From Natrialba asiatica DSM 12278 (GTDB lineage Archaea; Halobacteriota; Halobacteria; Halobacteriales; Natrialbaceae): DNA of 64,000 nucleotides. Every line of letters begins with the position of its first letter. Within the stretch, counting starts at the first letter, position 1. Shown here piece after piece: positions 26,656 through 44,792 of the stretch. The stretch is taken from NCBI RefSeq assembly GCF_000337555.1, contig NZ_AOIO01000007.1, positions 146,293-210,292 of the forward strand, read 5' to 3'. The notes beneath the pieces are model-generated. The model was given only the letters and a program-made list of their open reading frames with translations, searched no databases and had not been told where the DNA came from. The translations under genes and the position numbers were made by a program.

Positions 26656-26802
26656 ATGGTAATAGCGCATAGTGGTGCGGCAGCTGTAGAACGACCGTCG
26701 ATTCAGCAGTGCCGGGACGTGACGAGCGGAGTGCTAGACGGAAGAGCAGACGGACGCGTTCACCGCCGGAGTGCCGCGCCCGGGCGCTATCGGGAGACAG
26801 TC

Positions 26803-29424
26803 ATGAACGATAGACAACCGTCGGATGACGAGGGCATCGACAGCGAACTACACTCGAGCGACATCTCGCGCAGGAACTACTGCAAACTGATCAGCGCCGC
26901 TTCAGCGGCGGGAGCGGTCGGTGCAGTCGGCACAGTTGGCGCGAGCAGTCATGTTCCGGTCGGCAATGGCAGCTACACGACAGCGTTGCCATCGGGAGCG
27001 GAGGCACCGCAGGCCGCTATCTGGACGACATCGGCGTTCGGCGGCGATCCGGTTCCGACCAACGACTGGTGGTCGAGTCTCGTCTGGAACTCGTTCTCCG
27101 AGAACATGTTCTCTCAGCCGCTGATGCTTCGGGCGGTAGAGGACGGCCTCCTCGTCAAGAATCCGACCGAGTGGATCGATGGGTCGACAACAGTAATGGA
27201 CAATCAGGGGCGCGACCTGACGATCGGACATGCGGGTACCGATAGCTTCGGCGACGCGCGTCTCGACGATCACGGCGACTGGTCGGTCGATGCGATCTGG
27301 GGCGATGGAACCACCACCACACTGCGTGCAACGTTCGCGCAGGGATCACCGTTCGTCTTCTGCGAATACGAGGGCGGCGGCGCCGAGATCGGTTTTGACG
27401 ATGCGCCGGCGGTCTGGGCCGACGAGGGCAACGTTCTCGGCGTCACGGTCTCCGGTCATCACTACGGGTTGTTCGCCCCCTCGGGAACGAACTGGACGGG
27501 CGTCGGTACCGACACGCTCGCCAACGACCTCGGCGGCGCGGGATACTGCTCGATCGCGGCCCTCCCCGAGACCGGTTCCCTCGGTACGTTCGAGGAGTAC
27601 GCGTACAATTTCGTCACCGACACCCAGGTCGACTGGGAGTACGATCAGGCAAATGCCGCGGTCCACACCACGTACAACTTCGAGACCGCCGATAGGCCCG
27701 AGAGCGCGGCGGCGGGAACGATCACAGCCCTGCATCCCCACCAGTGGAAATACAGCGACGACGAGACGTTGGGCACGACCTTCACGTCCCCGCGCGGAGA
27801 GATGCGCGTCGTTGCCGGGCCGTCGTTCTCGACGACCTACGACTACGGCGGCATGCTCCCGTTCTTGCCCGACGAAGGAGATTACGATACCGCGGAACTA
27901 CGGGGATACATCGATGAGATCGATACCGCGATCGACGGGCCAGACACGTACAACGTCGGCAAGGACTACGGCCGACTGGTCGAGAGCAAGGCGCTTGCCG
28001 AACAGTTCGGCCCGAGCGACAAGCGCGACGATATCGTCGGCTCACTTCGCGACCACCTCGAGCGGTGGCTTCAGGCCGAGAGCGGATCGGACGAACTGTT
28101 CTACTACGACGACAATTGGGGAACCCTGCTCGGGTATCCCGAGAGCCACGGCTCGGCGTCGTCGCTGTCCGATCACCACTTCCACTACGGGTACTACGTC
28201 CGCGCCGCCGCCGAGATCGCGCGTACGAACCCCGGGTGGGGCACTGCATCCGAATGGGGCGGCATGGTTGAACACCTGATTCGCGACTACGCAACCCCCG
28301 ATCGCGAAGACGATATGTTCCCCTTCGCCCGGAACTTCAGCCCCTACTGCGGGCACTCCTGGGCGGAAGGAGGCGGCGCAGAGTTCGCCGACGGGAACAA
28401 CCAGGAATCCTCCTCCGAAGCGCTCAACGCGTACGCGGCGATCATCGAGTGGGGCGAATACACCGACAACGCGGAACTGCGGGACTTCGGCGTCTACCTG
28501 TACACGACCGAACTCCACGCCGTCCACGAGTACTGGTTCGACGCCGACGACACGAATCACCCCGACTCGTGGGACTACGACACCGCCGGGATGGTGTGGG
28601 GCAACGGCTACGCCTACGCAACCTGGTGGACCGCGGACGAGGAGGCGATCCACGGTATCAACTGGCTCCCGCTCGCCGGCTACTCACTCCACCTGGGGTG
28701 GGACGATGCGGCCCCCGAAGCGAACTACGACGAACTCGTCGCGAACAAGGGAACCGACGAGTTCAGCTACTGGCCGGATCTCATGTGGATGTACCGGGCG
28801 TTCTCCGACGGGCAGGATGCCGTCGACAAGTTCGAGGCGCGAAAGGACGAGTACGAGGTCGAGGGTGGCCACACCCGCGCCCAGACGTACCACTGGATCT
28901 ACAACCTTCGTGCGATGGGCACACCGGACGGCGACATCACCGCTGATACGCCGTTCTACCAGGTGTTTAGCGACGGGACCCAGCGGACCTACGTCGCCTA
29001 CAATGCTGGCGACTCCGAGCGGACCGTCTCCTTCTCCGATGGGACGCAGTTGTCCGTCCCGGCGAACTCGCTGGCGACGGCTACCGGTGATGATGGTGGT
29101 GATGGCGGCGACGGTGGTGATGGTGGCGACGGCGGCGACGGTAATGATGGAGAAACCTATTCCGGAGACGCCGGTGATGGATGGACTGCTACCGTTTCGG
29201 ACGGCGGTCACTGGGAGTTCGATCCGAACGACGCTGCCGACTGGGCGGACGTGCAGTTCGACGACGGCGGCGGCTGGGTCGGGTATCGCATGGCGGCCGA
29301 CGGGGGCACCCACGTCCACACTCGTGACGCCGCCGATGATGGCGACTCGATCGATGTCCGGTTCGTCTGGGACGACGGGGCCGGTGGACAGTACGTCTCT
29401 GCTGCGTTCACACACCAGTACTGA
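26803..29424 (+). CDS. Secreted endo-beta-1,3-glucanase, GH81, with C-terminal binding-like domain
   Basis: An 873-residue Tat-exported enzyme that cuts beta-1,3-glucans inside the chain. The Tat motif SRRNYCKLISAASAAGAVGA is near residues 25-45. GH81 marks are NDWWSSLVW, then SDHHFHYGYYV at about 456-466 with the catalytic-region Asp457, and ESSSEALNAYAA with Glu535 and Glu539. A run of GGD repeats (about 762-782) links a C-terminal domain of about 85 residues (DGWTATVSDGGHWEF to the end), probably carbohydrate-binding. ATG 26803 is preferred over 26656: it follows a GGGAG sequence and the extra 49 codons are not haloarchaeal in composition. First gene of the glucan locus. Confidence 0.88.
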   Translation: MNDRQPSDDEGIDSELHSSDISRRNYCKLISAASAAGAVGAVGTVGASSHVPVGNGSYTTALPSGAEAPQAAIWTTSAFGGDPVPTNDWWSSLVWNSFSENMFSQPLMLRAVEDGLLVKNPTEWIDGSTTVMDNQGRDLTIGHAGTDSFGDARLDDHGDWSVDAIWGDGTTTTLRATFAQGSPFVFCEYEGGGAEIGFDDAPAVWADEGNVLGVTVSGHHYGLFAPSGTNWTGVGTDTLANDLGGAGYCSIAALPETGSLGTFEEYAYNFVTDTQVDWEYDQANAAVHTTYNFETADRPESAAAGTITALHPHQWKYSDDETLGTTFTSPRGEMRVVAGPSFSTTYDYGGMLPFLPDEGDYDTAELRGYIDEIDTAIDGPDTYNVGKDYGRLVESKALAEQFGPSDKRDDIVGSLRDHLERWLQAESGSDELFYYDDNWGTLLGYPESHGSASSLSDHHFHYGYYVRAAAEIARTNPGWGTASEWGGMVEHLIRDYATPDREDDMFPFARNFSPYCGHSWAEGGGAEFADGNNQESSSEALNAYAAIIEWGEYTDNAELRDFGVYLYTTELHAVHEYWFDADDTNHPDSWDYDTAGMVWGNGYAYATWWTADEEAIHGINWLPLAGYSLHLGWDDAAPEANYDELVANKGTDEFSYWPDLMWMYRAFSDGQDAVDKFEARKDEYEVEGGHTRAQTYHWIYNLRAMGTPDGDITADTPFYQVFSDGTQRTYVAYNAGDSERTVSFSDGTQLSVPANSLATATGDDGGDGGDGGDGGDGGDGNDGETYSGDAGDGWTATVSDGGHWEFDPNDAADWADVQFDDGGGWVGYRMAADGGTHVHTRDAADDGDSIDVRFVWDDGAGGQYVSAAFTHQY
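29086..29150 (+). repeat. Tandem GGD-coding repeat in the GH81 linker
   Basis: About 65 bases of near-repeating GGTGATGGC-type triplets coding Gly-Gly-Asp units, a flexible acidic linker between catalytic and C-terminal domains. Prone to length change by slippage. Confidence 0.8.
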
Positions 29425-29529: not shown

Positions 29530-30666
29530 ATGGACAGGGATCCACTCCGGGACGCGCTACAGGACGCGGGGTTGACCTCGTACCAGGCCGACGCGTACAT
29601 CACGCTACTCGAGCAAGGAATGATGCCAGCGGTGGAGGTCGCCAAGCGCTGTTCCGTCCCGGTGTCCCAGATCTACGATGTCCTTCGCGCTCTCGAGCGG
29701 ATGGACTACATCGAGACGTTCGACCAGGACAAACTCCACGCCCGCCCGCGGGAGCCGATCACTGTCCTTCGTGAACTCCGGTCTCGAAGCGAACTAATGA
29801 ACTCGGCGGCAGATGCGATCGAAGATCGGTGGGAGCAACCGGCAGTTAGCGATCACAAGGTAAGCGTCGTCAAACACGAGGAGACGGTCGTCGACCGGGC
29901 GCGCGATCTGATCCGAGACGCGGAGAGTTTCATCGAACTGTCGGCGACCGTCGACCAATTCCGGACCCTCACGAACGCCCTGGAGGACGCCCGCGATCGC
30001 GGCGTCATCACGAAGGTAGCGGTATACGGGGTCGACCTGGAAGCGCAACTCGCGACCGTCTCGTTCGAAGAAACGGTGACAGAACTCCGCGCGTGCCGAA
30101 TCCCGGGGCCGTTCCTACTCGTGGCAGACCGCACACAGACGTGCTTTACGCCGAACGATTGGGCCAACAGGCCGTTCGGCGTCCTGATCGACGACTACAT
30201 TCTCTCGTTTATCTTCCACTGGTACTTCCAGACGGGCGTCTGGGCGCTCTGGGAGACGGTGTACGAGGATACCGACCCGCCCTACACCTACATGACTCTC
30301 GAAGAGTTCGTCCAGGACGTCGCACCGCTCTGGCGGGACGGAGCGAACGTCGCAGTGACGGTCGACGGGACGTGGGCCGACACGAACGACGCCTGCGAGA
30401 TCACCGGGATCGTCACCGACATCGAATACCCGGGCGTTTACCGGTCCGAGGGCCGTCCGTCGTTCGAGGAGTTAGCCGGCTTCCTGCAACTGACGCTGGC
30501 CGTCGACGGCGACCTGTACAGCGTCGGCGGATGGGGGACCGTTTACGAGGATATCGAGGCGGTCCAAATCACGCTCGAGACCATCGAGTTCGACGAACCG
30601 AACAGTGTGGGAAGCGCCGGCAGCGACGACGCATGGGCGGTCGGGATCGAATCGGAAGACGATTGA
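29530..30666 (+). CDS. TrmB-family sugar-responsive transcriptional regulator
   Basis: A 378-residue regulator. Residues 1-75 form the TrmB winged helix (GLTSYQADAYITLLEQGMMP then SVPVSQIYDVLRALERMDYI), followed by a helical linker (about 80-115) and a large C-terminal sugar-binding region with a PLD-like subdomain (about 115-240) and the TrmB C-terminal beta domain. TrmB proteins bind mono- or oligosaccharides and act as repressor or activator of uptake and catabolic genes. Placed 105 bases after the GH81 gene in the middle of glucan-degrading genes, it is the likely controller of this locus. Confidence 0.9.
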   Translation: MDRDPLRDALQDAGLTSYQADAYITLLEQGMMPAVEVAKRCSVPVSQIYDVLRALERMDYIETFDQDKLHARPREPITVLRELRSRSELMNSAADAIEDRWEQPAVSDHKVSVVKHEETVVDRARDLIRDAESFIELSATVDQFRTLTNALEDARDRGVITKVAVYGVDLEAQLATVSFEETVTELRACRIPGPFLLVADRTQTCFTPNDWANRPFGVLIDDYILSFIFHWYFQTGVWALWETVYEDTDPPYTYMTLEEFVQDVAPLWRDGANVAVTVDGTWADTNDACEITGIVTDIEYPGVYRSEGRPSFEELAGFLQLTLAVDGDLYSVGGWGTVYEDIEAVQITLETIEFDEPNSVGSAGSDDAWAVGIESEDD

Positions 30667-30765: not shown

Positions 30766-33522
30766 TCACTGCAGCGTGATCGCGTTGAAGTTCCAGGAGC
30801 CGGTTTCGGCGACGATCCGGACCGTGCTCTGGGTATCGATTGCGACGCCGGTGGCGACGGTAACGTCGGTCCAGTCGTGCCAGCCGCCGGTGGACGGCAC
30901 GTCAACCGTCCCGGAGACGTTCCGGCCGTCGATTTCGAGGTGGAACGCGGAGTCCGACTCAGGCGAGGAGACGTTTGCGACAACGTCGACGGTGCCCTCG
31001 GTGTCGACTACCGACTCGTAGGCCCACCAATTGTTGTCGTCGATCCAGCCGATCGACTCGCCGCCCTCGCCGTTGTCTTCGATCCCGTAATCGCCTGCCG
31101 AGTCGTCGTACGCGACTGCGTCGATCGTCGTCGCGAGGTCGTCTTCGTCATCAGTCCCCTCGACGATCAGCCCATCGACGAGTCGGGGATCTTCCTCGGC
31201 CTCCGGTGGGGCGGTCGCCTCGTAGTACACGTCGTTGCCGCCCATGGTTAGCTCTTGGTCCATCCCGCTCCCGTCGCCCGAATCTAGCTGGACGGTTTCG
31301 TCGACATCGATATCCCGCAGTTCGACCGTTACGTCGCCGCCGAAGATTTTCTCGCCGCTGATGTACACGTCGGCGTTCGCGTTGTCGAAGTCGCTCGTTG
31401 TGACGGTGGTCGTCCCGGGATTCAGTGCCCCGATCCCGTCCTCGAAGCGCTCGATCGTCGTATCTTCGACGACGAGGGAGTCCATGCGCATGTTGTGGCT
31501 GATGCCGACGCCCCGTCCGTCGCCGATCAGGCGCGAGTTCCTGATCGTCGCGTACCCGGAGTACCGGAGGGCGATCCCCAGGTCGACGCCGCGGATGCCG
31601 CCGAAGCCCTCGACGGTCGCGTGCGGGAGTTCGTCCTCGCCGTCCCGACCTCGGAGATTCCAGCCGGTGAAGTTCTCGATTCGGGCGTAGTACTCCGCGT
31701 TGCCCTCGATGACCTCGGCGCGTGCTCCTCGCATGACGTTCATCACGTCGATTCCCGACCCCGAGGCGAACGCGACGTTGTCGAGGTTCCGGAACGGAAT
31801 CGAGCCTTCGTCGACGTAGACGGTGCCGTCGTCGGCCTCGTAGGTGGCGTGGGCGAATTCCGCGACGTTAGGGCCGTCGGTTCCCGGCGCGACGTTGCGT
31901 TCGTCGGTCGGCTTATCGTCGGCGTAGTCCGCGGGCACGTTCGGGATGGTTCCGCGGTGACGACCGATATCCGCCTCGGTCAGTTCGTCGGTCGGTGCGT
32001 TCCGCGTCCGCGGATCGTCGTAGGGAAGCGCCTCGGGGACGTAGTCGCCTAACGCCCGCGTCCAGTAGGCGAAGGCGAAGTTCCGGTGGCCCGCAGCGAC
32101 GTTATTTTCGACGGAGACGAGCGGGCCGTGCAGCCAGAATCCGTGGCCACCGTGGCCGTAGTCGTCGATATTTCGCTCGTGATTGAAGTTCTCGATGAAC
32201 TCGCGCCAGTCGGGGTCTCGGCCGCTCCCTTCCGAGCGGAGCGCGAAGTTGTTCCGGAAGTGGCCGATCTCGACGCCGGTCTCGGTCATAAACCCGGTTC
32301 CGCTGACCTTGTAGCTGATACAATCTTCCACGGCGGCGTAGCTCTGGTGGTTGGTGAATCCCCAGCCGGGGCTGCCCTTCCAGCCGTCGCCGTCGGTCCG
32401 CGGTGCGACGACGCAACCGGTGACGTCGTGGGGATCGAGATCGTAGTCGGGGCCCGTCTTGTGAAAGTGCAGCGCATAGCGGGATTTGACGTTCTCGTTC
32501 GGATCCAGCTCGAGTTCCGAGCCGCCGTATTGGGGGTTGGAGAACCGACGCATCTTGTTCGTCCGTCCGAGATCGTAAAAGCCAGCGTGATCGATCGTCG
32601 ATCCCGCCGCCAGTATCATTACGTGCCCGCGACGCTTGATCTCGGTATTCTCCGATCGGAATCGGACGGAACGGTCCAGGTGCAGTACGTACGAGTTCAG
32701 GTCGTATCCGACCGGCGGAACGTGGTCGTCACTGAGGGGCGCTTCGAGGACGACCGTCGATCCGTCGACGCTCGCGATGGTCACCTCCTCGTCCTGGTTT
32801 TCTCGGGCGGAGACGCCGGGAACGACCAGTGTGTCGCCGGGCCGCCAGTTCGTCGGTAGCGTCTCGAGTTCGAGGTGGCTGTCCCCCGCTCGCGGGTGTG
32901 CGTCGAGGGTCGTATGGGCCGTTTTTGACGCGCCGACGAGTTCGAGACCGCCCCCGACAAGCACCCCTCGGCTCAGTCGGTCGGGGTCCCACTCCTCGTC
33001 GATCGGCCCGCGATCGAGGAACGTGACCGCTGCGGTGACGGCGGGTGCCACCGGGTCGGCCGCCGTGCCGATTTCGACGGTACTCCCCGCGGTCGAGATG
33101 ATCGTGTCTACCCGAAGGTGGGTGTCCGTGGTCGGATCCACTCGATACGTCCCGTCAACCCGGAGCCAGTGAAGGCGTGCGGTTTCACCGCCCAACGTCA
33201 CCGTTACGCCAGCCGGGATTGTTACCCTGGCGTCGGTGTCGGGGACGCCATCGTCCCACGTCGTCGCGTCGTTCCATCGCCCGTCTCCGACGGCCGTGTG
33301 CGTCGGTTGTTCGATCGTCGAATCTCCGTCGACGAGGTCGAGAACCGGCGAACCGTCACTCGAAGCCGCAACCGTCGTTCCCGCCATGCTGCCGGTGGCG
33401 ACGAGCCCGGCGGTTCCGATGCCGACTGCCTCGAGAAAATTCCGTCGGTCGACGCCGGTGGTGTCCGCCCCGCTACTCGGCGGTCGATACTGTTCGTCCG
33501 TTCCGCAATCGTTGTCCGTCAT
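30766..33522 (-). CDS. Secreted G8-domain/right-handed beta-helix protein with C-terminal CBM6
   Basis: A 918-residue Tat substrate (DRRNFLEAVGIGTAGLVATG). Residues about 75-190 are a G8 domain (DGRWNDATTWDDGVPDTDAR and VTIPAGVTVTLGG). The middle (about 250-760) is a long Asn/Gly/His-rich region with right-handed beta-helix character, as in CEMIP-like and other G8 proteins. The last about 125 residues are a CBM6-like module (GESIGWIDDNNWWAYESV then TGSWNFNAITL) that resembles the CBM6 of the GH16 neighbour. Start at 33522 places the RR motif about 27 residues in. No known catalytic motif is seen; activity on a glucan or other polysaccharide is inferred from the module and neighbours. Confidence 0.82.
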   Translation of the reverse strand: MTDNDCGTDEQYRPPSSGADTTGVDRRNFLEAVGIGTAGLVATGSMAGTTVAASSDGSPVLDLVDGDSTIEQPTHTAVGDGRWNDATTWDDGVPDTDARVTIPAGVTVTLGGETARLHWLRVDGTYRVDPTTDTHLRVDTIISTAGSTVEIGTAADPVAPAVTAAVTFLDRGPIDEEWDPDRLSRGVLVGGGLELVGASKTAHTTLDAHPRAGDSHLELETLPTNWRPGDTLVVPGVSARENQDEEVTIASVDGSTVVLEAPLSDDHVPPVGYDLNSYVLHLDRSVRFRSENTEIKRRGHVMILAAGSTIDHAGFYDLGRTNKMRRFSNPQYGGSELELDPNENVKSRYALHFHKTGPDYDLDPHDVTGCVVAPRTDGDGWKGSPGWGFTNHQSYAAVEDCISYKVSGTGFMTETGVEIGHFRNNFALRSEGSGRDPDWREFIENFNHERNIDDYGHGGHGFWLHGPLVSVENNVAAGHRNFAFAYWTRALGDYVPEALPYDDPRTRNAPTDELTEADIGRHRGTIPNVPADYADDKPTDERNVAPGTDGPNVAEFAHATYEADDGTVYVDEGSIPFRNLDNVAFASGSGIDVMNVMRGARAEVIEGNAEYYARIENFTGWNLRGRDGEDELPHATVEGFGGIRGVDLGIALRYSGYATIRNSRLIGDGRGVGISHNMRMDSLVVEDTTIERFEDGIGALNPGTTTVTTSDFDNANADVYISGEKIFGGDVTVELRDIDVDETVQLDSGDGSGMDQELTMGGNDVYYEATAPPEAEEDPRLVDGLIVEGTDDEDDLATTIDAVAYDDSAGDYGIEDNGEGGESIGWIDDNNWWAYESVVDTEGTVDVVANVSSPESDSAFHLEIDGRNVSGTVDVPSTGGWHDWTDVTVATGVAIDTQSTVRIVAETGSWNFNAITLQ

Positions 33523-33634
33523 GGTGTGCACTCGTTTCGTTGGCCTGGAGGCAGCGATGCGCTGAGGAACTGTCCTCTCGTTCGCCGCTCCGCCCAACTA
33601 CTGCAACAGTATACGAAAGCCATATATAGTCCAT

Positions 33635-33654
33635 TTTATCATTCACGTGATGTT
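33635..33654. promoter_or_regulatory. Shared ATCATTSACGTGA element, copy 1
   Basis: TTTATCATTCACGTGATGTT, with the perfect palindrome TCACGTGA, lies about 115 bases before the G8 gene start (on its upstream side) near a TATATA box at 33622-33628. Fifteen of the first sixteen bases recur at 34126-34141 before the GH16 gene. Confidence 0.45.
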
Positions 33655-34125: not shown

Positions 34126-34145
34126 TTTATCATTGACGTGACTGT
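34126..34145. promoter_or_regulatory. Shared ATCATTSACGTGA element, copy 2
   Basis: TTTATCATTGACGTGACTGT lies about 125-145 bases before the GH16 start in the same strand orientation as copy 1. The AACTTTATC at its left end could double as a TATA box. Confidence 0.45.
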
Positions 34146-34269
34146 GACATCCATTGTGTCTTCCGGTGGCTCGCGTCGAGTCGATGAGTCGATAGAGTGA
34201 CACCACTGGAAGCGTGGTCGGAAGACGCCGATCCGCCGGGAGACAGCGGATACAATCCAATTGAGAACG

Positions 34270-36126
34270 ATGACAGACCAACGACACGCAGCACGGAGAG
34301 CAGAGGGTTCGAAAGACACGACCGTTCCGCGCAGGCGGTTTCTGGGTGCGGCTGCGGTCGCCGCGGCCGGTGCCGGTCTTGCGAGTTCAGTCGCGAGTGC
34401 GGCTCCCGGTGACGTCGCGTTCGCGGTCAACGCCGGCGGGAGCGCCTACACGGCTGCGGACGGGACTGACTATCGGGCAGATACGAGTTATAGCGGCGGG
34501 AGCGCTGCACAGTCGAGCGATTCGATCGCCGGTACCGACGACGACGACCTCTACCGGAGCGAGCGATACGGCGATTTCAGCTACGACATTGAACTCGCTG
34601 CCGGGACGTACGATATCGAACTCCACTTCGCCGAGACATACTGGGAGGCAAGCGGCGACCGCGTGTTCGACGTTTCGGTAGCGGGTACCGAGGCGGTCGC
34701 CGATCTCGACATCTACGCCGAAGTCGGTCACGACGCGGCGCTGGTGCGGACGATTTCCGGCGTCGATGTTCCCGGCGGGACGCTCACGATATCGGCTACT
34801 AGCGATGTCGACAATGCCGTTATCAACGCGATCAGGGTGGTCGAAGCCAACGGCGACGGCTCGTCTAGCCAGCAGCCGTACGGCGGATCGGCGTGGACGA
34901 TTCCCGGTCGTATCGAGGCTGAAGATTACGATACTGGTGGCGAAGGCGTTGCCTATCACGACACCACCTCGGGGAACGCTGGCGGCGCGTACCGCGCCGA
35001 CGATGTCGATATCGAGTCCGCAACCGAAGGCGGGTACAACGTCGGCTGGATTGCGGCCGACGAATGGCTCGAGTACACCGTTGACGCCGACAGCACCACC
35101 ACCTACGACCTGGATCTTCGAGTCGCCTCCGCCTCGGGCGGTGGGCAGGTTCGCGTCGAGGTCGACGGGACCGACGTCACCGGCTCGCTCGATTTCGATG
35201 CCACCGGCGGCTGGCAAGAGTGGACGACCGTTACCGCCGGTTCGGTCAATCTGGCTGCCGGTCAACACGTCGTCCGAGTTTACGCGGAGACCGGTGACTG
35301 GAACTTCAACTATCTCGAGTTACGCCCCGCGGGCGGTGACGGTGGGGCGACCTATCCCGACGATCCGGGGAACCTCGACGGCCGGTCCTGGGACCAGTTC
35401 TTCGCCGACCACTTCGACGGCGACTCGCTCGATACGAGCGTCTGGGTGGACCAGGAAGGGAACGGCCACGACTACGGCGTCCCCGGCTGGGGGAACGGCG
35501 AGGAGCAGTATTACAGCCGGGACAACAGGTGGGTTGAGAATAGCAACCTGGTCGTCGAGATCCGCGAGGAACAGGCGTCGGACGAACACGGGACGTACGA
35601 CTATACGTCGGGGAAGCTGGTGACTCAGGGTAATCTCGACTTCCAGTACGGTCGCGTCGACTTCCGTTCGAAGCTCGTCGAGGACCAGGGACTGTGGCCG
35701 GCCCACTGGATGTTACCGGCCGGCGACGCGGCCTGGCCGGACGACGGCGAGATCGACATCATGGAACTGGTCGGTAACGAACCCGCGGCGGTCCACGGAA
35801 CCGTCCACGGACCCGGTTACTCGGGCGGCGGCTCCATCGGCGGGGGCTATCACCTCGACAGCGGCGTCTTCGCCGACGACTTCCACGTCTTCTCCGTCGT
35901 GTGGGATCCCGGTGTGATCAAGTGGTACGTCGACGGCGAGCACTTTTTCACGGTCACCCGCGAGGACGTCGAGAGCGGCGGTAACGACTGGGTGTTCGAC
36001 GACGGCCCCTTCTGGTTAATTCTCAATTGCGCCGTCGGCGGCGAGTGGCCCGGCTCGCCCGACGAAACGACGACCTTCCCGCAGCGGATGGAGATCGACT
36101 ACGTTCGGCTGTTCACCGAAGCGTAA
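34270..36126 (+). CDS. Secreted laminarinase: malectin-like domain, CBM6 and GH16 catalytic domain
   Basis: A 618-residue Tat-exported endo-beta-1,3(4)-glucanase. The signal is VPRRRFLGAAAVAAAGAGLA. Residues about 47-195 are malectin-like (VAFAVNAGGSAYTAADGTDY, LHFAETYWEASGDRVFDV), about 210-355 are a CBM6 (GRIEAEDYDTGGEGVAYHDT, GDWNFNYLEL), and about 375-618 are GH16. The catalytic motif is EIDIME with Glu494, Asp496 and Glu499. ATG 34270 is used; the upstream TTG is unlikely. GH16 and GH81 together give complementary attack on laminarin-type glucans. It is followed by the convergent ABC importer operon. Confidence 0.93.
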   Translation: MTDQRHAARRAEGSKDTTVPRRRFLGAAAVAAAGAGLASSVASAAPGDVAFAVNAGGSAYTAADGTDYRADTSYSGGSAAQSSDSIAGTDDDDLYRSERYGDFSYDIELAAGTYDIELHFAETYWEASGDRVFDVSVAGTEAVADLDIYAEVGHDAALVRTISGVDVPGGTLTISATSDVDNAVINAIRVVEANGDGSSSQQPYGGSAWTIPGRIEAEDYDTGGEGVAYHDTTSGNAGGAYRADDVDIESATEGGYNVGWIAADEWLEYTVDADSTTTYDLDLRVASASGGGQVRVEVDGTDVTGSLDFDATGGWQEWTTVTAGSVNLAAGQHVVRVYAETGDWNFNYLELRPAGGDGGATYPDDPGNLDGRSWDQFFADHFDGDSLDTSVWVDQEGNGHDYGVPGWGNGEEQYYSRDNRWVENSNLVVEIREEQASDEHGTYDYTSGKLVTQGNLDFQYGRVDFRSKLVEDQGLWPAHWMLPAGDAAWPDDGEIDIMELVGNEPAAVHGTVHGPGYSGGGSIGGGYHLDSGVFADDFHVFSVVWDPGVIKWYVDGEHFFTVTREDVESGGNDWVFDDGPFWLILNCAVGGEWPGSPDETTTFPQRMEIDYVRLFTEA

Positions 36127-36292: not shown

Positions 36293-37378
36293 TTACCGCT
36301 CGTCAGCGTCGAGGCTGGCTCCCTCGAGTGGATCGCTGTGCCAGTACTCGCTGTCTTCCTCGCTACGAAAGCAGGACACTCGGTGGGAAGCCTCGCCGAC
36401 CGAGCGCCTGTCGGGGGTCATTTCACGGCAGTGTTCGGTCGCGTACGGACACCGCGTGTGGAACCGACAGCCGGAGGGCGGATCGACCGGATCGGGGATA
36501 TCGATCTCCCGAACCGGCGGCTCTGCCGGACCCTCCTCGATGCCGAGGGAAGGAGTCGCCCACTTCAACACCTTCGTATAGGGGTGCTGTGGGTTCCGGA
36601 GCACTTCTTCCGCACCACCGAGTTCAACGAGTTCACCGAGGTACATCACGCCGAGTCGACCGTCAGCGTGCTCGGCCAAATAGCGAGCGTTCGAAAGGTC
36701 GTGTGAGATAAAGAGAAAGGACGTGTCGAACGCGCCCTGGAGTTCGAGCATCAGGTCCATCACTTCGACACGCAGTGAGACATCGAGCGCGCTCACGGCC
36801 TCGTCGGCCAGGATGAGGTCCGGATTCATCAGCAGCGCTCGAACCAGTGCGACGCGCTGTTTCTCCCCGCCGCTCAGTTGATGGGGATACCGCCGGGCGT
36901 AGTCGTGGGGCGGCGTCATCCCGACGCGCTCTAACATCGCGAGGATTCGCGCCTCGCGGTCTTCGGGACCCAGCTCTGTCTGGACCGTCTTCAGCGGTTC
37001 GGCGAGCGATGCCTCGACGGTTCGGTGTGGATTCAACGACGATCCGGGGTCCTGGTGAATAATCTGCAGCGACTGACGGATCTCCGAATACGGGATTGAC
37101 GGGTTCGTGAAGCGTTTTTTGGCGTTCCAGATATCCTGCCCGCGGAAGGTGACGGTACCTGAACTCGGTTGTTGGAGGCCAACGGCCGCCTTGCCGAGGG
37201 TAGTTTTGCCGCTGCCGGACTCGCCGACGATGGCGACGACATCGTTTTCGGGAATATCGAGGTCGACACCGTCGACTGCTTGCACCGTCCGTGGTCCCTC
37301 GAAGGGATTGAGGGTGCCGTCCATTTCGAAGTGGATGTCGACGCCGGACATCGAAACGACGGGGTCGTCTGCGCTCAT
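36293..37378 (-). CDS. ABC transporter ATP-binding protein, Opp/Dpp F-type
   Basis: A 361-residue ATPase. Walker A is GESGSGKTT, the signature is LSGGEKQRVALVRAL, Walker B ends DEAVSALD, and the oligopeptide-transporter C-terminal domain has CRFHTRCPYATEHC. Last gene of a five-gene operon, overlapping the preceding ATPase by four bases. It energises import together with the D-type partner. In Pyrococcus and Thermotoga, transporters of this peptide-type family carry beta-gluco-oligosaccharides, and the glucanase neighbours suggest the same here. Confidence 0.9.
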   Translation of the reverse strand: MSADDPVVSMSGVDIHFEMDGTLNPFEGPRTVQAVDGVDLDIPENDVVAIVGESGSGKTTLGKAAVGLQQPSSGTVTFRGQDIWNAKKRFTNPSIPYSEIRQSLQIIHQDPGSSLNPHRTVEASLAEPLKTVQTELGPEDREARILAMLERVGMTPPHDYARRYPHQLSGGEKQRVALVRALLMNPDLILADEAVSALDVSLRVEVMDLMLELQGAFDTSFLFISHDLSNARYLAEHADGRLGVMYLGELVELGGAEEVLRNPQHPYTKVLKWATPSLGIEEGPAEPPVREIDIPDPVDPPSGCRFHTRCPYATEHCREMTPDRRSVGEASHRVSCFRSEEDSEYWHSDPLEGASLDADER

Positions 37379-38433
37379 CGGCTCACCTCCGTCGTCAGAT
37401 CGATTTCGTCGGGGACGCGCTCCCAGTAGTGACAGGCGACGTCGTGGGTTTCGCTGGCGGCTTCCATAGCGGGCTTGACTGCCGCACAGTCAGCGGTCGC
37501 CAGCGGGCATCGCTCGTGGTACGGACAGCCCGGTGGCACGTCGACGGGATCGGGTGCTGACCCCTCGATCGGTTGCATCTCCGCTAGCGGTGACTCGATA
37601 TCGGGCGTCGAGTTCAGCAGCGCTCGGGTGTAGGGATGCCTCGGGGAGCGAAGGAGTTCCTCGGTCCCGCTGACTTCGGCGAGTTCGAACGCGTAAAGGA
37701 CGCCGATCCGGTCCGCGAGCTTCGTCACGAGCGGCAGGTCGTGCGTGATAAAGACCATCGTCAGGTCGTACTTCTCCCGGAGAGCAGAGAGCAGGCTGAT
37801 GATCGATCGCTGCATCAGCAGGTCAAGCGCCGCCGTCGGCTCGTCCATCACGAGCACGTCCGGTTCGAGGACGAGCGAGAGTGCGATGAGCGCGCGCTGT
37901 TTCATCCCGCCGGAGAGTTCGTGGGGGTAACTGCCGAGCACGCGACCGGGATCGAGATAGAGATCCGAGAGGAGTTCGTGCGTCCGTTCCATTCCCGACT
38001 CGACGTCGTAGCCGTGTGCTTCGAGCGTCTCGACGAAGTGGCCGCGGAGTTTCAGCGTCGGGTTGAACGAGGAGAGCGCACCCTGGAATACCATCGAAAT
38101 GTCCTCCCAGCGTAGCTGCTGGAGTTGATCGTCCGAACGGTCGAGGACATCGATCTCCCGGCCCTCCGCCGGCCGGTAGGTGATCGTCCCGGTGGTTACT
38201 CCGGGTTCGACGACGGCGTCCAACAGTGCGGACGCGAACATCGACTTCCCGGAGCCGGATTCGCCGACGATACCGATGATCTCGTTGCGCTCGATGTCGA
38301 TGTCCAATCCGTTGAGGACCGTCGACGTGCCGCGGTCCATAGTGAACTCGACGGAGAGGTCCCGACAGGTGAGGATGGCGTCTGATCGGGTCTGGGTCTT
38401 CGCGGTGGGCGCCGCATCGGCGTGTCTGCTCAT
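37375..38433 (-). CDS. ABC transporter ATP-binding protein, Opp/Dpp D-type
   Basis: A 352-residue ATPase with Walker A GESGSGKSM, signature LSGGMKQRALIALSL, Walker B region VLVMDEPTAALD and the peptide-transporter C-terminal CPYHERCPLATADC cluster. Overlaps both neighbours by four bases, so the operon is translationally coupled. Works as a heterodimer with the F-type subunit. Confidence 0.9.
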   Translation of the reverse strand: MSRHADAAPTAKTQTRSDAILTCRDLSVEFTMDRGTSTVLNGLDIDIERNEIIGIVGESGSGKSMFASALLDAVVEPGVTTGTITYRPAEGREIDVLDRSDDQLQQLRWEDISMVFQGALSSFNPTLKLRGHFVETLEAHGYDVESGMERTHELLSDLYLDPGRVLGSYPHELSGGMKQRALIALSLVLEPDVLVMDEPTAALDLLMQRSIISLLSALREKYDLTMVFITHDLPLVTKLADRIGVLYAFELAEVSGTEELLRSPRHPYTRALLNSTPDIESPLAEMQPIEGSAPDPVDVPPGCPYHERCPLATADCAAVKPAMEAASETHDVACHYWERVPDEIDLTTEVSR

Positions 38434-39467
38434 CGGATCCCACCCCCGGTCGTCGTGGTCGTTTCATCCGCCGGTTCGTCGGCGGTGTCGGTTGTCGAGG
38501 AATGACGGGCACGAACGCGCGGATTGAACATTCGATCCGTGCCCTGTGAGAACAGGATTAGACCGAACGATAGAAGCGTGATCGCCGCCAGCGGCGCGAT
38601 CAGCCAGTGGGCCAGCGACATGACGTGCATCGCACCGCCGCTGACCGCCTGATCGATCATGACGCCCCAATTGACGACGCTGTCGTAGGGCAATACGCCG
38701 AGGAAGTACAGCCCGATCGAGGCGAAGATAACCTGTCTCGCCGCATTAACGAACGTAATTAACACGTATGGCATGATGTTTGGAAGGATGTCTTTGACGA
38801 TGATCGTCGGGGTCGATAGCCCCATGGCCTGCGATGCCTCCACGTAGGAGTGGCGGCTAATCGAGAGGACTTGTGACCGGATCTCTCTGGCGAGTCCGGC
38901 CCAAACGTTGATTGTCAGGACGAGTCCCGTGACGACCGGGTCCTGCGGTTCGAGTAGCGCGGCCAGGATAACGATGAGCGGAAGCCCTGGGATGGTCATC
39001 ACGATGTCAGTGAGCAGTGAGAGGACCCGATCGGTTCGTCCGCCGGAAAACCCTGCGGTCGTGCCCACGGTGACGCCAAGGACCGTCACGAACAGGCCGC
39101 CGGCGACGATCATCTGCAGCATCGACGGTGTTGCGTGGATGATCTGGGCGAGGATGTCGCGACCGAGATTGTCGGTTCCGAGGGGGTGGGTCAGCCCCTC
39201 GGAGAGGGGCGTGATTGACCGCGGCCCCTGGTTGACTTCCGGTTCCGTGTAGAGTCTCGGACCGAATAGGCCGACGAGCGCGTACAGTAGCAGGATCGAC
39301 GCGCCGATGCGAGCACGGACATCGCCTCGGATGATCCGACCCGGGGCGAGCACCCACCGGTCGAACAGCCGCCGGTAGCGCTCTCTGCGACTCATCGTCT
39401 TGTCGGCCACGGCTTCGAACGCGTCACCGTCGTCGATCGCACGCAGTGATTCCGTGCGTTCGCTCAT
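38430..39467 (-). CDS. ABC transporter permease, Opp/Dpp C-type
   Basis: A 345-residue permease with six TM helices; the N-terminal leader is long and hydrophilic. The C-type features are the conserved GTDNLGRDILAQIIHATP stretch and the EAA loop YVEASQAMGLSTPTIIVKDI. It forms the channel with the B-type permease and overlaps both flanking genes by four bases. Confidence 0.9.
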   Translation of the reverse strand: MSERTESLRAIDDGDAFEAVADKTMSRRERYRRLFDRWVLAPGRIIRGDVRARIGASILLLYALVGLFGPRLYTEPEVNQGPRSITPLSEGLTHPLGTDNLGRDILAQIIHATPSMLQMIVAGGLFVTVLGVTVGTTAGFSGGRTDRVLSLLTDIVMTIPGLPLIVILAALLEPQDPVVTGLVLTINVWAGLAREIRSQVLSISRHSYVEASQAMGLSTPTIIVKDILPNIMPYVLITFVNAARQVIFASIGLYFLGVLPYDSVVNWGVMIDQAVSGGAMHVMSLAHWLIAPLAAITLLSFGLILFSQGTDRMFNPRVRARHSSTTDTADEPADETTTTTGGGIR

Positions 39468-40492
39468 CGGTGATCACCCCCTCGAGTCTGGGCTCGAGGA
39501 TCGATGAGCCCGTACGTGAGATCGGCGATGTAGACGCCGAGCACGACTGCGACCGTCATCACGAGGAAGACGCCCATCATGAGCGGGTAGTCGCGCGCTT
39601 CCAGCCCCTCGATCATGTAGTACCCGACGCCGGGGTACGTGAACACCTGTTCGAGGATGACGCTGCCGCCGAGCGCGAACCCGATGGCAATGAGGAGCGC
39701 CGTATACAGCGGCAATACCGCGTTTCGACCGACGTAGCGCGTCGCGATTCGCCGCTCGGAGAGCCCGCGAAGCCGCGCGACTCGCAGGTATTCCTCACCG
39801 AGTACTTGGATGCTGTTGCCGCGCATCCGCAACGCCCAGCCGCCGGCCGCGACAACCGTGTACGACAGGATTAGCAACGAGGCGTGCCAGAGGGCGTCGC
39901 CGAGGAAGGCAAGCGTCTGGATCGGCTCCAGTAGCCCCACTGTCGGTTCCATTTCCGTCGAGTACCGACCGCCCGTCGGAAACAGCTCGAGCTGATAGCC
40001 GAGGAACCAGATCGACAGAATGCCGACGATGTAGTTCGGAATCGAGTTGCAGAAAATCGAGAGCACGGAGAGGCCGTTGTCGAAGTAACTCCCCTCCTTG
40101 TACGCCATTATGGCCCCGAATGAGATGCCGATGGCGAACGAGAGCAATAGCGCGAGGGACATCGTGAAGATCGTCCACGGAAGCGCCTCCGAGATAATCT
40201 CCGAGACGGGAACGCCCTCGTTGATCGACTCGCCGAGGTCTCCTTGCAGCAGTCCGGCCACGTAGTTGATGTACTGCTCGTGGAGCGGCGCATCCGGGAG
40301 GACGTTGAGTTTCTGCTCGACACGGTGGTCAATATCGGCCTGCGACAGCTGGGGATTGTTCTGGATGAGTTCCGCTCGGTAGGCGTCTGCGGGGTTACCG
40401 GGCATCAGCCGCAGAAGGAAAAACGCGAGGGTCATCACCGAGACCACCGTGATGACCGCCTGAAGTGTGCGTTCGAGGTAGTATTGTTGCAT
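39464..40492 (-). CDS. ABC transporter permease, Opp/Dpp B-type
   Basis: A 342-residue permease with six TM helices. It begins with the usual YYLERTLQAVITVVSVMTLA helix and LRLMPGNPADAYR, and the EAA-type loop reads YLRVARLRGLSERRIATRYV. It starts 21 bases after the binding-protein gene and is the second gene of the operon. Confidence 0.9.
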   Translation of the reverse strand: MQQYYLERTLQAVITVVSVMTLAFFLLRLMPGNPADAYRAELIQNNPQLSQADIDHRVEQKLNVLPDAPLHEQYINYVAGLLQGDLGESINEGVPVSEIISEALPWTIFTMSLALLLSFAIGISFGAIMAYKEGSYFDNGLSVLSIFCNSIPNYIVGILSIWFLGYQLELFPTGGRYSTEMEPTVGLLEPIQTLAFLGDALWHASLLILSYTVVAAGGWALRMRGNSIQVLGEEYLRVARLRGLSERRIATRYVGRNAVLPLYTALLIAIGFALGGSVILEQVFTYPGVGYYMIEGLEARDYPLMMGVFLVMTVAVVLGVYIADLTYGLIDPRAQTRGGDHR

Positions 40493-40513: not shown

Positions 40514-42301
40514 CTAGTCCTCGGCCTTCGCAACGAGTTTTCCAACGCGAGGGAGATACGTCGTCGGGTACTGGACGGACGTCGCCGGGTCCGGGTTCTC
40601 GGCGACCTTGAAGTTCTCGACGGAGACGAAACACTGGTCGATCTTCTCCTGTACCGGAAGTTGGGGTAGGTCGTAGTTGAAGATCCACGCCAACTCCTGA
40701 ATTTTCCGACGTGCGGCGTCGCTGTCGGCATCCATACCGACGAGTGCTTCGAGTTCAGGCGCGAGTTCGACCGTTTCGGGATCCCCGTCGGGGTCGCCCT
40801 TCGGTGGAACGTCGACCGATGTGGGGTAGTTGTAGACGGTCTGGGCGTCCGCGCTGTTTAGGTTCCAGTTGAGGGAGTGGTAGGGGTACGTCCAGCCGTC
40901 GGACCACCAGAAGCCGGCCGCATCGAAGCCCGTATCGCCGTAGAGGTCCTGTCCGAAGTAGACGCTGTCGTCCCGGGTGATGAGGTTGGTCTCGATGCCG
41001 AAGTCCTGGAGGTGCTGGTTGAACGTGATCAGGGCATCGACCCACTCGTTCCAGGCGGCGGGCACCTTGCATTCGAACGTGAGTGTCTCGCCGTCCTCGT
41101 CGACCCAGGTGCCGTCTTCCATCGAGAAGCCGGCCGACTCGAGCAGTTCGGCGGCGCGGTCGGTGTTCCGCCCAGCGTACTCCTCGAAGCCGCCCGGATT
41201 GTCGAGCCAGTCGTCGGCTGAATCGTCGAAGTTGCCGACGATTCCCGTTGGCGTTCCAACGGGTGCTTTTGCGTCGCCACCGCCCGCGGAGTTCTCCGCG
41301 ACGATTTCGCGATCGACGGCGTGGGCGATCGCTTTGCGGACCGCTCGCCGTCCGAAGTGCTTGTGATCGTGGTCGAACGCGATCGACAGGCCCCAGTTGG
41401 CGGGTTGTTGAATCTCGAGGACGGAGTTGGGGAACGATCCCATGATGTCCGGCGATGTGAAGATGTTGTGTAGGGCATCGACCGAGCCGCCGCGGATCGC
41501 CTGCCAGGCTTGCTCGTTCCCGTCGATGAACCGGAACCGGTACTCGGCAAAATTAACCCTATCGGCCCAGTGGGAGTCTTCGAACTTCGTGGTGACGAGT
41601 TCTTGCTCGCCGGTGCGTTCGTACTGGAACGGGCCCGTCCCGATCGGTTCCGCGGCCGCGAAGTCCGAGAGAGCTGTTGACTCGGGATCGTCCTCCAGTT
41701 CCGAGAGGATGTCGTCGTACTGCGCAGCCGGCGTGTCGAGCAGCATGCTCTTGATCGAGTTGAGGAAGACGGGCTCGGAAACGGTCGTTTCGAGTCCGAC
41801 CTCGACGGTCGTCTCGTCAACGGCGGTGACGTTCTCGACGGCGGTGAAGTTTCCGATCGGGTGGCTGTCGTATAGCGAAATGTGGAGTTTCCGGACGAGA
41901 TCGTCCGCCGTGGCGTCAGTGCCGTTGTGCCAGGTCAGATCATCCTGTACCGTCAGTGTTGCCGCATCTTCGGTGACCTCCCAGTCGGCGAGGGCTCCTG
42001 CAACGAATTCCCCGGTCGTCGCCTGGAAGTACACGAGCCGGTCGAAGACCACGTAGCCGGGTCGGTCCGGATAGTTACTGTCGTTCGCACTGTTCCATTG
42101 CATGTCTTCGGGGAGGACCGATGTTGGCGCGGTGAACGTTCGGTCGGTCATTGGCTCATCGCCGGTGATCTCCTCGTTGCTCGGGCTGCTGTCGGTACCG
42201 AAACAGCCTGCAAGCGCCGCCGCCCCCGTCGCGCCGACCAACTGGAGGAATGGCCGGCGTGATGCCTCTACGTCTCTGTGGAACATGCCCTCTGATCGCA
42301 T
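40514..42301 (-). CDS. ABC transporter substrate-binding protein, family 5 (Opp/Dpp type), Tat lipoprotein
   Basis: A 595-residue binding protein of the SBP_bac_5 family. The signal SRRPFLQLVGATGAAALAGC is a Tat lipobox, so it is exported folded and lipid-anchored. Typical segments include DDLTWHNGTDATADDLV and AVRKAIAHAVDREIVAENSA. Start at 42301 is favoured by a TATA box at 42331-42337; 42286 is an alternative. Peptide-family members in Pyrococcus furiosus and Thermotoga bind cello- and laminari-oligosaccharides; adjacency to GH3, GH16 and GH81 suggests that here. Direct proof is absent. Confidence 0.9.
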   Translation of the reverse strand: MRSEGMFHRDVEASRRPFLQLVGATGAAALAGCFGTDSSPSNEEITGDEPMTDRTFTAPTSVLPEDMQWNSANDSNYPDRPGYVVFDRLVYFQATTGEFVAGALADWEVTEDAATLTVQDDLTWHNGTDATADDLVRKLHISLYDSHPIGNFTAVENVTAVDETTVEVGLETTVSEPVFLNSIKSMLLDTPAAQYDDILSELEDDPESTALSDFAAAEPIGTGPFQYERTGEQELVTTKFEDSHWADRVNFAEYRFRFIDGNEQAWQAIRGGSVDALHNIFTSPDIMGSFPNSVLEIQQPANWGLSIAFDHDHKHFGRRAVRKAIAHAVDREIVAENSAGGGDAKAPVGTPTGIVGNFDDSADDWLDNPGGFEEYAGRNTDRAAELLESAGFSMEDGTWVDEDGETLTFECKVPAAWNEWVDALITFNQHLQDFGIETNLITRDDSVYFGQDLYGDTGFDAAGFWWSDGWTYPYHSLNWNLNSADAQTVYNYPTSVDVPPKGDPDGDPETVELAPELEALVGMDADSDAARRKIQELAWIFNYDLPQLPVQEKIDQCFVSVENFKVAENPDPATSVQYPTTYLPRVGKLVAKAED

Positions 42302-42566: not shown

Positions 42567-44792
42567 ATGACAAGCCTAGAGGACAGTGAGTCATACCTAG
42601 ATCCATCGCTACCGATCGAAGAGCGCGTCGCAGACCTCCTCGACCGGATGACGCTCGAAGAGAAGATCGGTCAGCTAGCTGGTTCCTACATCGGGGTGCT
42701 TGCTGATGGCCTCCACGGGGTCGACGACGTTATCGACGAAATCGACGAGTATCACATCGGCGCAGTCGCCCCCTTCGGCTGGGGCGGCTCGCCCAACGAG
42801 TCGATCGCGGAGGCCACGGACGCGGCTCGTCGACTGCAAGAGCACGCTCTTGAATCGACGCGACTCGGTGTCCCGCTGCTGTTCGCCGCTGACGCGATTC
42901 ACGGTCACGCCTACATCAAAGAGTCGACGGTCTTCCCGAACAACCTCGGTGCAGCGGCGACGTGGAGTCCCGATCTCGTCGAGCGTGCCGCCGAAATCAC
43001 CGCGACAGAGATGCGAGCAACGGGGGCTGCCCAGAACTACAGTCCAACGTGCGATGTCGTTCGCGATCCGCGGTGGGGACGAACCGGAGAGACGTTCGGC
43101 GAGAGCCCGTTCCTCGTCGGGGCGCTAGCAAGCAGCGAGATCCGAGGCTATCAGGGTGGTGGCCCCGGAGACGCCGTGCTCGCGACGGCAAAACACTTCC
43201 CGGCCTACGGAGCACCGACGCGCGGCGAGGACGCCGCACCGGTCGATGTCTCCCCGTCCACGCTACGACAGATGCTCCTCCCGCCGTTCGAGGCAGTCCT
43301 CAACGAGGACGTTGGGGCAGTAATGCCGTGTTATAACTCGATCGACGGCGAACCGGCTCACGGGTCCCGCCGATATCTGACCGACCTCCTTCGGGAGGAA
43401 CTGAACTTCGACGGACTCGTTGTCTCGGACTGGAACGGCATTACCCAGTTGTACGAGGACCACCGCACGGCGGGAACCCCGATCGAGGCAGCACGTCAAA
43501 CGCGCCTTGCGGGCCTCGACGTTGGCTCGGTTGCCGGTGGCGAACACGCACAGCACATCCGGGACCTCGTCGAGCAGGGCGCATTGTCCGAACGAGCGAT
43601 CGAGGACAGCGCTGAGCGAGTGCTGCGGGCGAAGTTCTCTCTCGGTCTCTTCGAGGATCCGTATCCGGATCCCGATGTTGAAGCCGTACTGGGCGCTCCC
43701 GCCCATCTCGACACCGCTCGCGAGGCCGTTCGGAAGTCGCTTACCCTGTTGCAAAACGAGGAGGACGTACTCCCCCTCGACGATAGCGTCGGTGAGGTAT
43801 TCGTGACCGGCCCGAACGCCGACGAGATGGTCCACCAGAACGGCGGCTGGAGCTGCAACGCGGATACCGGCATTCCCGGGACGACGATTCTCGAGGGAAT
43901 CTCCGATACCGTCGACACCGACACGGTCGTCACCCACGAACCCGGGAGCGGAATCTCCACTCCTGGCGATGTCGATGCCGCCGCAGAACGCGCCGCCGAG
44001 GCGGATATCGCCGTGGTTGCCCTCGGCGAGGACTGGTATCTTCACGAGTTCGGTCCGTCCGCGGAGACCGATGGGGAGACCGGCGAGTTCCCGACGCGGA
44101 ACGAACTCTCACTTCCGGACGCACAGCGTGACCTCGTCGAGGCAGTATCCGCGACCGGCACACCGATCGTTGCAGTCCTCGTCACCGGTCGCCCGCTGGC
44201 CGTCGAGTGGTTGGCAGCGGAAGTCCCGGCGATCCTCATGGCGTACTATCCCGGTCGGGTCGGCGGCGAGGTGATCGCAGAGACCCTGTTCGGAGCGGCC
44301 GAACCCGGCGGGCGGCTTCCAATTTCGATCCCGCGCTCGGCGGAGACGCTCCCGACATACTTCAATCGGCTCCCCCATCCACAACCGATTGGGGCCGATG
44401 AGCACCCCGCGTCGTACGACCCGTTATTCGAGTTCGGTCACGGGCTCAGCTACACCACTATCGAGTACGAGTCGGTCGACGTCTCCCGTGACGTGGTCCG
44501 CCCGGACGAGGAGCTTACGGTTCGGGCCACCGTGGCCAACACCGGCGATCGGCACGGGAGCGAGGTCGTCCAGGTGTTTGGCCGAGACGAGTTCAGTTCG
44601 GTCGTAACGCCCGTCCGCGAACTGTGGGCGTTCGAGCGCGTTGAACTCGATCCCGGGGAGCGAACGGAGGTGGAACTTCGGCTCAGCGCGGACGAGATTG
44701 GACGCTTCGAGCAATCTCACGGTGAGCGAATCCATGAGGGACGTCTCCGGCTCTTCGTGGCGGATCGAACGTTCGACCTCGACGTACGGTGA
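42567..44792 (+). CDS. Cytoplasmic GH3 beta-glucosidase
   Basis: A 741-residue glycoside hydrolase family 3 enzyme. The N-terminal barrel has AADAIHGHAY, KHFPAYGAPTRGEDA and the nucleophile Asp288 in GLVVSDWNGI; the alpha/beta sandwich domain has SLTLLQNEEDVLPLD and VALGEDWYLHEFGPSAETDG; the end is a fibronectin III-like domain (FEFGHGLSYTTIEY to the end). It releases glucose from beta-linked oligosaccharides. There is no signal peptide, unlike the GH81 and GH16 enzymes, so it should act on imported oligosaccharides. It is divergent from the ABC operon with a 265-base promoter region. Confidence 0.92.
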   Translation: MTSLEDSESYLDPSLPIEERVADLLDRMTLEEKIGQLAGSYIGVLADGLHGVDDVIDEIDEYHIGAVAPFGWGGSPNESIAEATDAARRLQEHALESTRLGVPLLFAADAIHGHAYIKESTVFPNNLGAAATWSPDLVERAAEITATEMRATGAAQNYSPTCDVVRDPRWGRTGETFGESPFLVGALASSEIRGYQGGGPGDAVLATAKHFPAYGAPTRGEDAAPVDVSPSTLRQMLLPPFEAVLNEDVGAVMPCYNSIDGEPAHGSRRYLTDLLREELNFDGLVVSDWNGITQLYEDHRTAGTPIEAARQTRLAGLDVGSVAGGEHAQHIRDLVEQGALSERAIEDSAERVLRAKFSLGLFEDPYPDPDVEAVLGAPAHLDTAREAVRKSLTLLQNEEDVLPLDDSVGEVFVTGPNADEMVHQNGGWSCNADTGIPGTTILEGISDTVDTDTVVTHEPGSGISTPGDVDAAAERAAEADIAVVALGEDWYLHEFGPSAETDGETGEFPTRNELSLPDAQRDLVEAVSATGTPIVAVLVTGRPLAVEWLAAEVPAILMAYYPGRVGGEVIAETLFGAAEPGGRLPISIPRSAETLPTYFNRLPHPQPIGADEHPASYDPLFEFGHGLSYTTIEYESVDVSRDVVRPDEELTVRATVANTGDRHGSEVVQVFGRDEFSSVVTPVRELWAFERVELDPGERTEVELRLSADEIGRFEQSHGERIHEGRLRLFVADRTFDLDVR

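Follow-up and report, generated by a model that had tools for sequence, protein, structure and literature searches.

In the 64,000-nucleotide stretch of Natrialba asiatica DSM 12278 DNA analyzed here (the window), a gene on the minus strand (30766..33522) encodes a protein of 918 amino acids in which a putative Tat-type signal is followed by a G8 domain, then a CEMIP-type β-helix and finally a CBM6 module. The reading frame is uninterrupted from the ATG at 33522 to the stop codon at 30766-30768 and the gene is real; the coordinates assigned to it in the initial annotation were correct. The N-terminus (about residues 1-50; 33373..33522, minus strand) has the sequence DRRNFLEAVGIGTAGLVA and carries a twin-arginine pattern, RRNFLE at residues 26-31, followed by a hydrophobic stretch, as judged by eye. 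The NCBIfam Tat model TIGR01409 gave 14.0 bits against a cut-off of 16.7, and the twin-arginine pair is invariant in 11 relatives. The G8 domain (residues 88-206; 32905..33261, minus strand) was identified with Pfam PF10162 (47.1 bits, cut-off 22.9), and a search of the host's own genome found this protein as its single G8 match (E 3.0e-13). The CEMIP_beta-hel domain (PF24606; residues 388-488; 32059..32361, minus strand) passed its Pfam threshold narrowly, with 28.2 bits versus a cut-off of 27.3. None of the relatives tested received a name from NCBIfam.

The C-terminal CBM6 (residues 802-917; 30772..31119, minus strand; PF03422, 48.5 bits, cut-off 28.9) also clearly matches the CBM6 domains of laminarinases with solved structures (5fui, 1w9s and 8zvk by phmmer). 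It had initially been described as closely resembling the CBM6 of the neighboring GH16 enzyme, with the ending WNFNxxxL in both. The shared ending was confirmed (WNFNAITL in the G8 protein, WNFNYLEL in the GH16 enzyme), but the close resemblance was overstated, as identity is 33% over 161 amino acids and 35% by module. The nearest modules found were the CBM6 of an ortholog in genome G016 (63%) and the terminal CBM6 of a second GH81 enzyme in the same G016 locus (57%). E819, W826, W881 and N911 align with the cleft of the ZgLamC CBM6 (5fui) and all four residues are kept; an acid, two aromatics and an asparagine of this type are what we take to be the β-1,3-glucan-binding cleft of CBM6 modules. 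In GH81 enzymes, deletion of CBM56 or CBM6 has been shown to lower activity on curdlan (PMC9609564).

The genes around the G8 gene form a coherent β-1,3-glucan locus, as they encode, by Pfam, a GH81 endo-β-1,3-glucanase with CBM56 and an RR signal (26656..29424, plus strand), a TrmB-family sugar-responsive regulator (29530..30666, plus strand), a GH16 enzyme with malectin and CBM6 modules and an RR signal (34261..36126, plus strand), which is the direct neighbor and conserved partner of the G8 gene, oppF/D/C/B-type ABC transporter genes (36293..40492, minus strand; oppF and oppB were scanned by Pfam and orthologs are conserved in sister loci), a family-5 solute-binding protein (SBP_bac_5; 40514..42301, minus strand) and a GH3 β-glucosidase family protein (42567..44792, plus strand). 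The ability of haloarchaea to grow on curdlan, pachyman and laminarin has been ascribed to genes of families GH81 and GH3, joined in some strains by GH161 (PMC9726719). The intergenic region between the G8 and GH16 genes contains a 16-bp direct repeat, with one copy on the G8 side (TTTATCATTCACGTGA; 33635..33650, plus strand) and the other on the GH16 side (TTTATCATTGACGTGA; 34126..34141, plus strand). This repeat is also present, with 2 mismatches, in G047, a genome of the same genus; since it was not found in L020, L022 and L026, it is regarded as a side matter only. The pattern TACT-N-AGTA, presumably a TrmB-like half-site, was considered as well and rejected as evidence of co-regulation, because it occurs once in the window (33599, upstream of the G8 gene) and is missing upstream of the other locus genes.

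Relatives of the G8 protein and their genomic contexts

G8 was found in 9 of the 125 genomes of the same family. Searches with the core detected relatives in 23 of 391 genomes from the class and, under a stricter threshold, in 18 of 392 genomes from the order; these two samples overlap. A scan of genome contigs with the single sequence recovered no relative and an alignment-based scan of such contigs recovered 11. In a tree of 34 cores, the window protein falls with full support (100/99) into a clade of five members from one family only (clade A), which comprises, besides the window protein, L026/L030 and L021/L052 (both from G016), L022/L031 (G066) and L020/L032 (G104). The remaining haloarchaeal members, grouped here as clade B, show about 37-45% identity, and a bacterial group, made up of Acidobacteria plus a single gammaproteobacterial record, is further removed. 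The CEMIP_beta-hel match is above the cut-off in one of the other four clade A members (31.1 bits) and below it in three (22.4-26.9 bits); it is stronger in clade B, at 34-52 bits in nearly all members scanned, with a maximum of 51.7.

The C-terminal tails differ among the clade A members, consisting of CBM6 in the window protein and L026, fn3 and CBM6 in L022, malectin in L020 and CBM56 in L021, the last detected by BLAST and missed by Pfam at 1e-3. The L022 CBM6 is 62% identical to the CBM6 of the window GH16, the L020 malectin 66% identical to its malectin module and the L021 CBM56 65% identical to the CBM56 of the window GH81. Judged by sequence, these tails are exchanged with the enzymes of the locus, and their kinship to GH16 and GH81 modules is the best evidence that clade A proteins would encounter β-1,3-glucan.

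An ortholog of the GH16 enzyme (86-100% identical) was present in 6 of the 125 family genomes, and an intact G8 gene adjoins it in four of these six (G000, G016, G104 and G066), in two arrangements, either divergent with 747-799 bp between the genes or in tandem with 266 bp. In G047, a 122-residue in-frame remnant of the G8 gene lies beside GH16, composed of the gene start, residues 515 to about 562 and the CBM6 end; in G042, the GH16 ortholog is present and the G8 gene is missing. Co-occurrence of GH16 and G8 gave a Fisher p of 2.6e-8, a value uncorrected for the kinship of these related genomes. Since the GH16-G8 pair in G066 occurs without any GH81, and the GH81 loci of G010, G017, G089 and G113 contain neither this GH16 nor G8, the partner of the G8 gene is GH16 more than the whole locus. 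GH81 loci without G8 (the same four and that of G042) also indicate that the G8 gene is dispensable for β-1,3-glucan use.

Within clade A, three of the five members lie in a full GH81/TrmB/opp/GH3 locus, and L021, which is the other clade A gene in G016, has no adjoining glucanase within its 19 kb. The proposed association of the gene with glucan loci is supported for clade A, where four of five members are located beside GH16 and every member has a tail related to those of β-1,3-glucanases. Presence mostly outside glucan loci, which the initial annotation had listed as a refutation of its reading, was found for the wider family and not for clade A. The sister-clade haloarchaeal proteins (among them L033, L069 from Halorubellus salinus, L071 from Haloferax profundi and L070 from HArc-gm2) share the core, the His/Glu set described below and the twin arginine; however, they do not adjoin GH16 or GH81, and those scanned lack a β-glucan-type tail, except for a CBM6 in L080 and, past a stop, in L073, and have other tails instead, such as PKD and PA14. 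By BLAST, the GH16 catalytic domain was absent from the clade B and acidobacterial contexts examined. Several clade B genes of one lineage have a common neighborhood of housekeeping-like genes, and L080 and L073 adjoin glycosyltransferase and rmlA-like genes (gene names were assigned by eye in both cases).

Among 72,556 plasmid records searched by tblastn, relatives were found in seven, all from Rhodobacterales (L092-L098) and all located in exopolysaccharide clusters with glycosyltransferases, export genes and, in most, sulfotransferases. GH16 lies within 12 kb of the relative in six of these seven Roseobacter plasmids, and one of these GH16 enzymes is of a subtype that occurs in 6 of the 72,556 records, all among the seven that carry G8. 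The plasmids offer a lead that pairing with GH16 may be repeated in another domain of life, the records being related and the counts carrying no significance test. The Roseobacter G8 proteins resemble the 918-amino-acid protein in having G8, CEMIP_beta-hel and the RYxxHxH motif, but differ from it by RTX repeats (in two of four scanned) and PA14 (in one), and their GH16 belongs to a different subgroup that is distantly similar to the window GH16.

Similarity to human TMEM2 and a conserved His/Glu set

A profile built from clade A and clade B members matched human TMEM2 (8c6i_A) weakly in the PDB (E 9.8e-5), and with a profile of 12 relatives, bacterial ones included, 8c6i_A was the sole PDB match, with an E of 2.5e-23. 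Comparison of a predicted structure with CEMIP and polysaccharide lyase folds, as had been suggested in the initial annotation, gave a concordant result, with 8c6i_A ranked first by Foldseek (E 1.1e-13, TM 0.47 by query length). The AF2 model used has a mean pLDDT of 63, a pTM of 0.71 and 348 residues below 50; its G8 part is mostly above 90, the model is weak past the first coils and the tail is unmodelled. Behind 8c6i_A in the Foldseek results came glycosidases and lyases built on a β-helix, namely phage capsule depolymerases, GH110, exopolygalacturonase and PL6. Their β-helix is likewise right-handed and parallel, but they are weaker fold matches (TM-scores by query length roughly 0.1-0.25, rmsd mostly >13 Å), with no matching Pfam family and no shared motif found; because of these low TM-scores, the matches below the first rank did not count towards family assignment.

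As in TMEM2 and CEMIP (KIAA1199, HYBID), the G8 domain of the archaeal protein runs on into a right-handed β-helix, and the protein has in common with TMEM2 (8c6i), in the same order, GHxMxM, RYxxHFH, a histidine, ExGxE and FWxxxP. In TMEM2, the β-helix makes three turns before a lectin-like domain interrupts it (PMC10206443). The archaeal protein, in contrast, lacks this lectin-like GG domain, which corresponds to a gap of about 171 residues (TMEM2 246-416, by computed offset); the profile alignment skips from 163 to 335 of the TMEM2 chain, and no lectin-like (GG/POMGNT1-like) Pfam match was obtained in the archaeal protein. It is also without the second lectin-like domain of TMEM2; in place of these domains it carries a putative Tat signal and a CBM6 tail. 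The family is homologous to human TMEM2, and on sequence grounds the 918-amino-acid protein belongs to the CEMIP-type G8/β-helix proteins, with a tail of the β-glucan-binding type, encoded beside a GH16 laminarinase.

The β-helix segment at residues 267-474 (32101..32724, minus strand), proposed here as the active-site region because of its conservation in archaea, bacteria and TMEM2 (8c6i), contains the conserved set H267, R284, H300, R348, Y349, H352, H354, H392, E414, E418, W463 and N474. The HxH motif (H352 and H354; 32461..32469, minus strand) within RYxxHxH is invariant in the archaeal rows, the acidobacterial/gammaproteobacterial rows and the Roseobacter relatives, and is found in TMEM2 too. 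Across clades A and B and the acidobacterial and Roseobacter groups, 33 positions are near-invariant; TMEM2 keeps 21 of them (64%), versus 34 of the 204 remaining aligned columns (17%; Fisher p 7e-8, uncorrected for relatedness). The polar and aromatic positions shared with TMEM2 are W226, D230, E245, H267, R284, H300, R348, Y349, H352, H354, H392, E414 and E418, among which H300, R348, Y349, H352, H354, H392, E414 and E418 correspond to TMEM2 H519, R546, Y547, H550, H552, H585, E608 and E612 (TMEM2 numbering being a computed offset of 82 from the construct). According to the secondary structure of the AF2 model, successive coils start with the HxH strand, the H392 strand and the strand that precedes E414, which suggests that in the model these strands form one exposed ribbon.

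The initial annotation had seen no catalytic motif in the G8 and β-helix part. This holds for known families, as none of the GH or PL family profiles in Pfam or NCBIfam was matched, but it overlooks the deeply conserved His/Glu set that the protein has in common with human TMEM2 and that may be the active site of the whole family, although the same residues could be structural instead. In β-helix enzymes the active site lies on the concave face, and that of TMEM2 could not be located by its authors, who reported that just one of the two acids of the chondroitinase B-like Ca site is present (PMC10206443). The refinement table of the 8c6i model lists one Ni2+ ion. The enzymatic status of TMEM2 and the position of any active site are openly disputed, as no hyaluronidase activity was detected in one study (PMC10206443) and no activity in another (PMC10276149), whereas activity has been claimed in a third (PMC10474455).

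Possible functions of the G8/CEMIP protein

The best explanation for these observations, to which we give about an even chance, is that the protein is a Tat-exported polysaccharide-active enzyme of the G8/CEMIP type that was recruited into β-1,3-glucan breakdown and cooperates with GH16 on material containing this glucan. The CBM6 would keep the protein on β-1,3-glucan, and a polysaccharide chain would lie in the β-helix groove over the face formed by H300, H352, H354, H392, E414 and E418. This site would cut bonds beyond the reach of GH16 and GH81, be it at a branch point, at a decoration or in the backbone of insoluble or mixed glucan; what it releases could then pass to GH16 and GH81, the opp-type transporter and GH3. 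Speaking against this reading, the loss-of-activity mutations of CEMIP/TMEM2 quoted in the papers examined sit in the lectin-like GG domain, which the archaeal protein lacks. No demonstration of catalytic activity for a prokaryotic G8/CEMIP member was found in the same papers. Nor was a description of the protein found there, and the suggestion that it represents an undescribed component is reasonable.

A cooperating enzyme is favored over a non-catalytic binder, in which CBM6 and the β-helix would hold and present β-1,3-glucan near the cell and GH16/GH81 with no cleavage. Such a binder, which we consider rather unlikely, would be consistent with the β-glucan-type tails in five of five orthologs, with the dispensability of the G8 gene in related loci and with the lack of detectable hyaluronidase activity in human TMEM2 (PMC10206443). 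However, the strongest conservation from archaea to human is that of the His/Glu/Arg set inside the β-helix, for which a pure binding protein has no obvious need, and the tails are freely swapped.

Less probable still is a depolymerase of the cell's own or a neighbor's exopolysaccharide, a role that other members of the family may have, recruited to the locus since natural β-1,3-glucan is embedded in such matrices. The location of all seven plasmid relatives in exopolysaccharide clusters and of L080 and L073 beside glycosyltransferase/rmlA-like genes points in this direction, but the clade A tails are of kinds found in β-1,3-glucanases, and the gene lies in a catabolic locus with an importer and GH3 and with no glycosyltransferase cluster seen alongside. 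That the gene is a chance neighbor with no role in glucan use would fit the wider family, most of which lies outside glucan loci, yet is very unlikely given the GH16-G8 adjacency in four genomes and two gene arrangements and the swapping of tails with locus enzymes.

Homology to CEMIP/TMEM2 could also suggest a hyaluronidase or another glycosaminoglycan-degrading enzyme, as claimed for CEMIP, and haloarchaea that grow on hyaluronan exist, including one isolate that also uses laminarin (PMC13260240); this reading, the least probable of all, is rejected as the main one because the GG domain, reported to be necessary for hyaluronan degradation by CEMIP/TMEM2 (PMC10276149), is missing from the archaeal protein, and it is further opposed by the β-glucan type of the tails and by the fact that the haloarchaeal hyaluronan paper mentions neither CEMIP nor a G8 domain (PMC13260240).

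Returning to the preferred reading of an enzyme that cooperates with GH16, a broader and more tentative proposal, possible rather than probable, is that the G8/CEMIP β-helix represents an undescribed glycan-cleaving family common to archaea, bacteria and vertebrates, with H300, H352, H354, H392, E414 and E418 as the active face, a repeated partnership with GH16, and the lectin-like domain and the CBM6, CBM56 and malectin tails as interchangeable targeting modules. A compact microbial relative that lacks the lectin insert and is paired with a glucanase of known reaction provides a tractable test for the TMEM2 question. Should the protein prove active, it would establish a new family of carbohydrate-active proteins, name residues for testing in CEMIP and TMEM2, and add to GH81, GH16 and GH3 an extra haloarchaeal component of β-1,3-glucan use.

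Remnant of the G8 gene in a congeneric genome

An in-frame remnant of the G8 gene was found in G047, a genome from the same genus as the window (locus L059, 11999-12367). This remnant lacks approximately residues 20-514 and 563-866, and its CBM6 end shows about 92% identity to the CBM6 end encoded in the window.

At both loci where the G8 gene has been lost, L059 and L060 (the latter in genome G042), the oppB, oppC, oppD and binding-protein genes are likewise absent and, in the oppF region, oppF is truncated; identity is still 92-96% for GH81, TrmB, GH16 and GH3.

Elements between the G8 and GH16 genes

The region between the G8 and GH16 genes carries two copies of a 16-bp direct repeat, TTTATCATTSACGTGA, one toward G8 (33635-33650) and the other toward GH16 (34126-34141). 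This repeat is also present, with 2 mismatches, in G047 and was not found in L020, L022 and L026, three loci with G8-gene orthologues from the same clade. Upstream of G8, the palindrome TACTGCAACAGTA (33599-33611), whose pattern occurs only once in the 64 kb window, was found in G047 as well. The intergenic region also contains a 79-residue ORF on the forward strand (33753-33992) with two hydrophobic stretches, which possibly encodes a small membrane protein.

More distant G8/β-helix proteins

Among the archaeal relatives, a G8/β-helix protein of 1737 residues (L080:5648-10861, genome G323) ends in two CBM6 modules, and its gene adjoins a second G8 gene as well as glycosyltransferase and rmlA-like genes. 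In MAG QS_4_69_31, the G8 gene at locus L073 (around 8070) has a single in-frame TGA that interrupts its CBM6; past this codon, the rest of the module follows with no change of reading frame. On Roseobacter plasmids (L092-L098), G8/β-helix proteins and GH16 are encoded within exopolysaccharide clusters, where some proteins carry RTX secretion signals.
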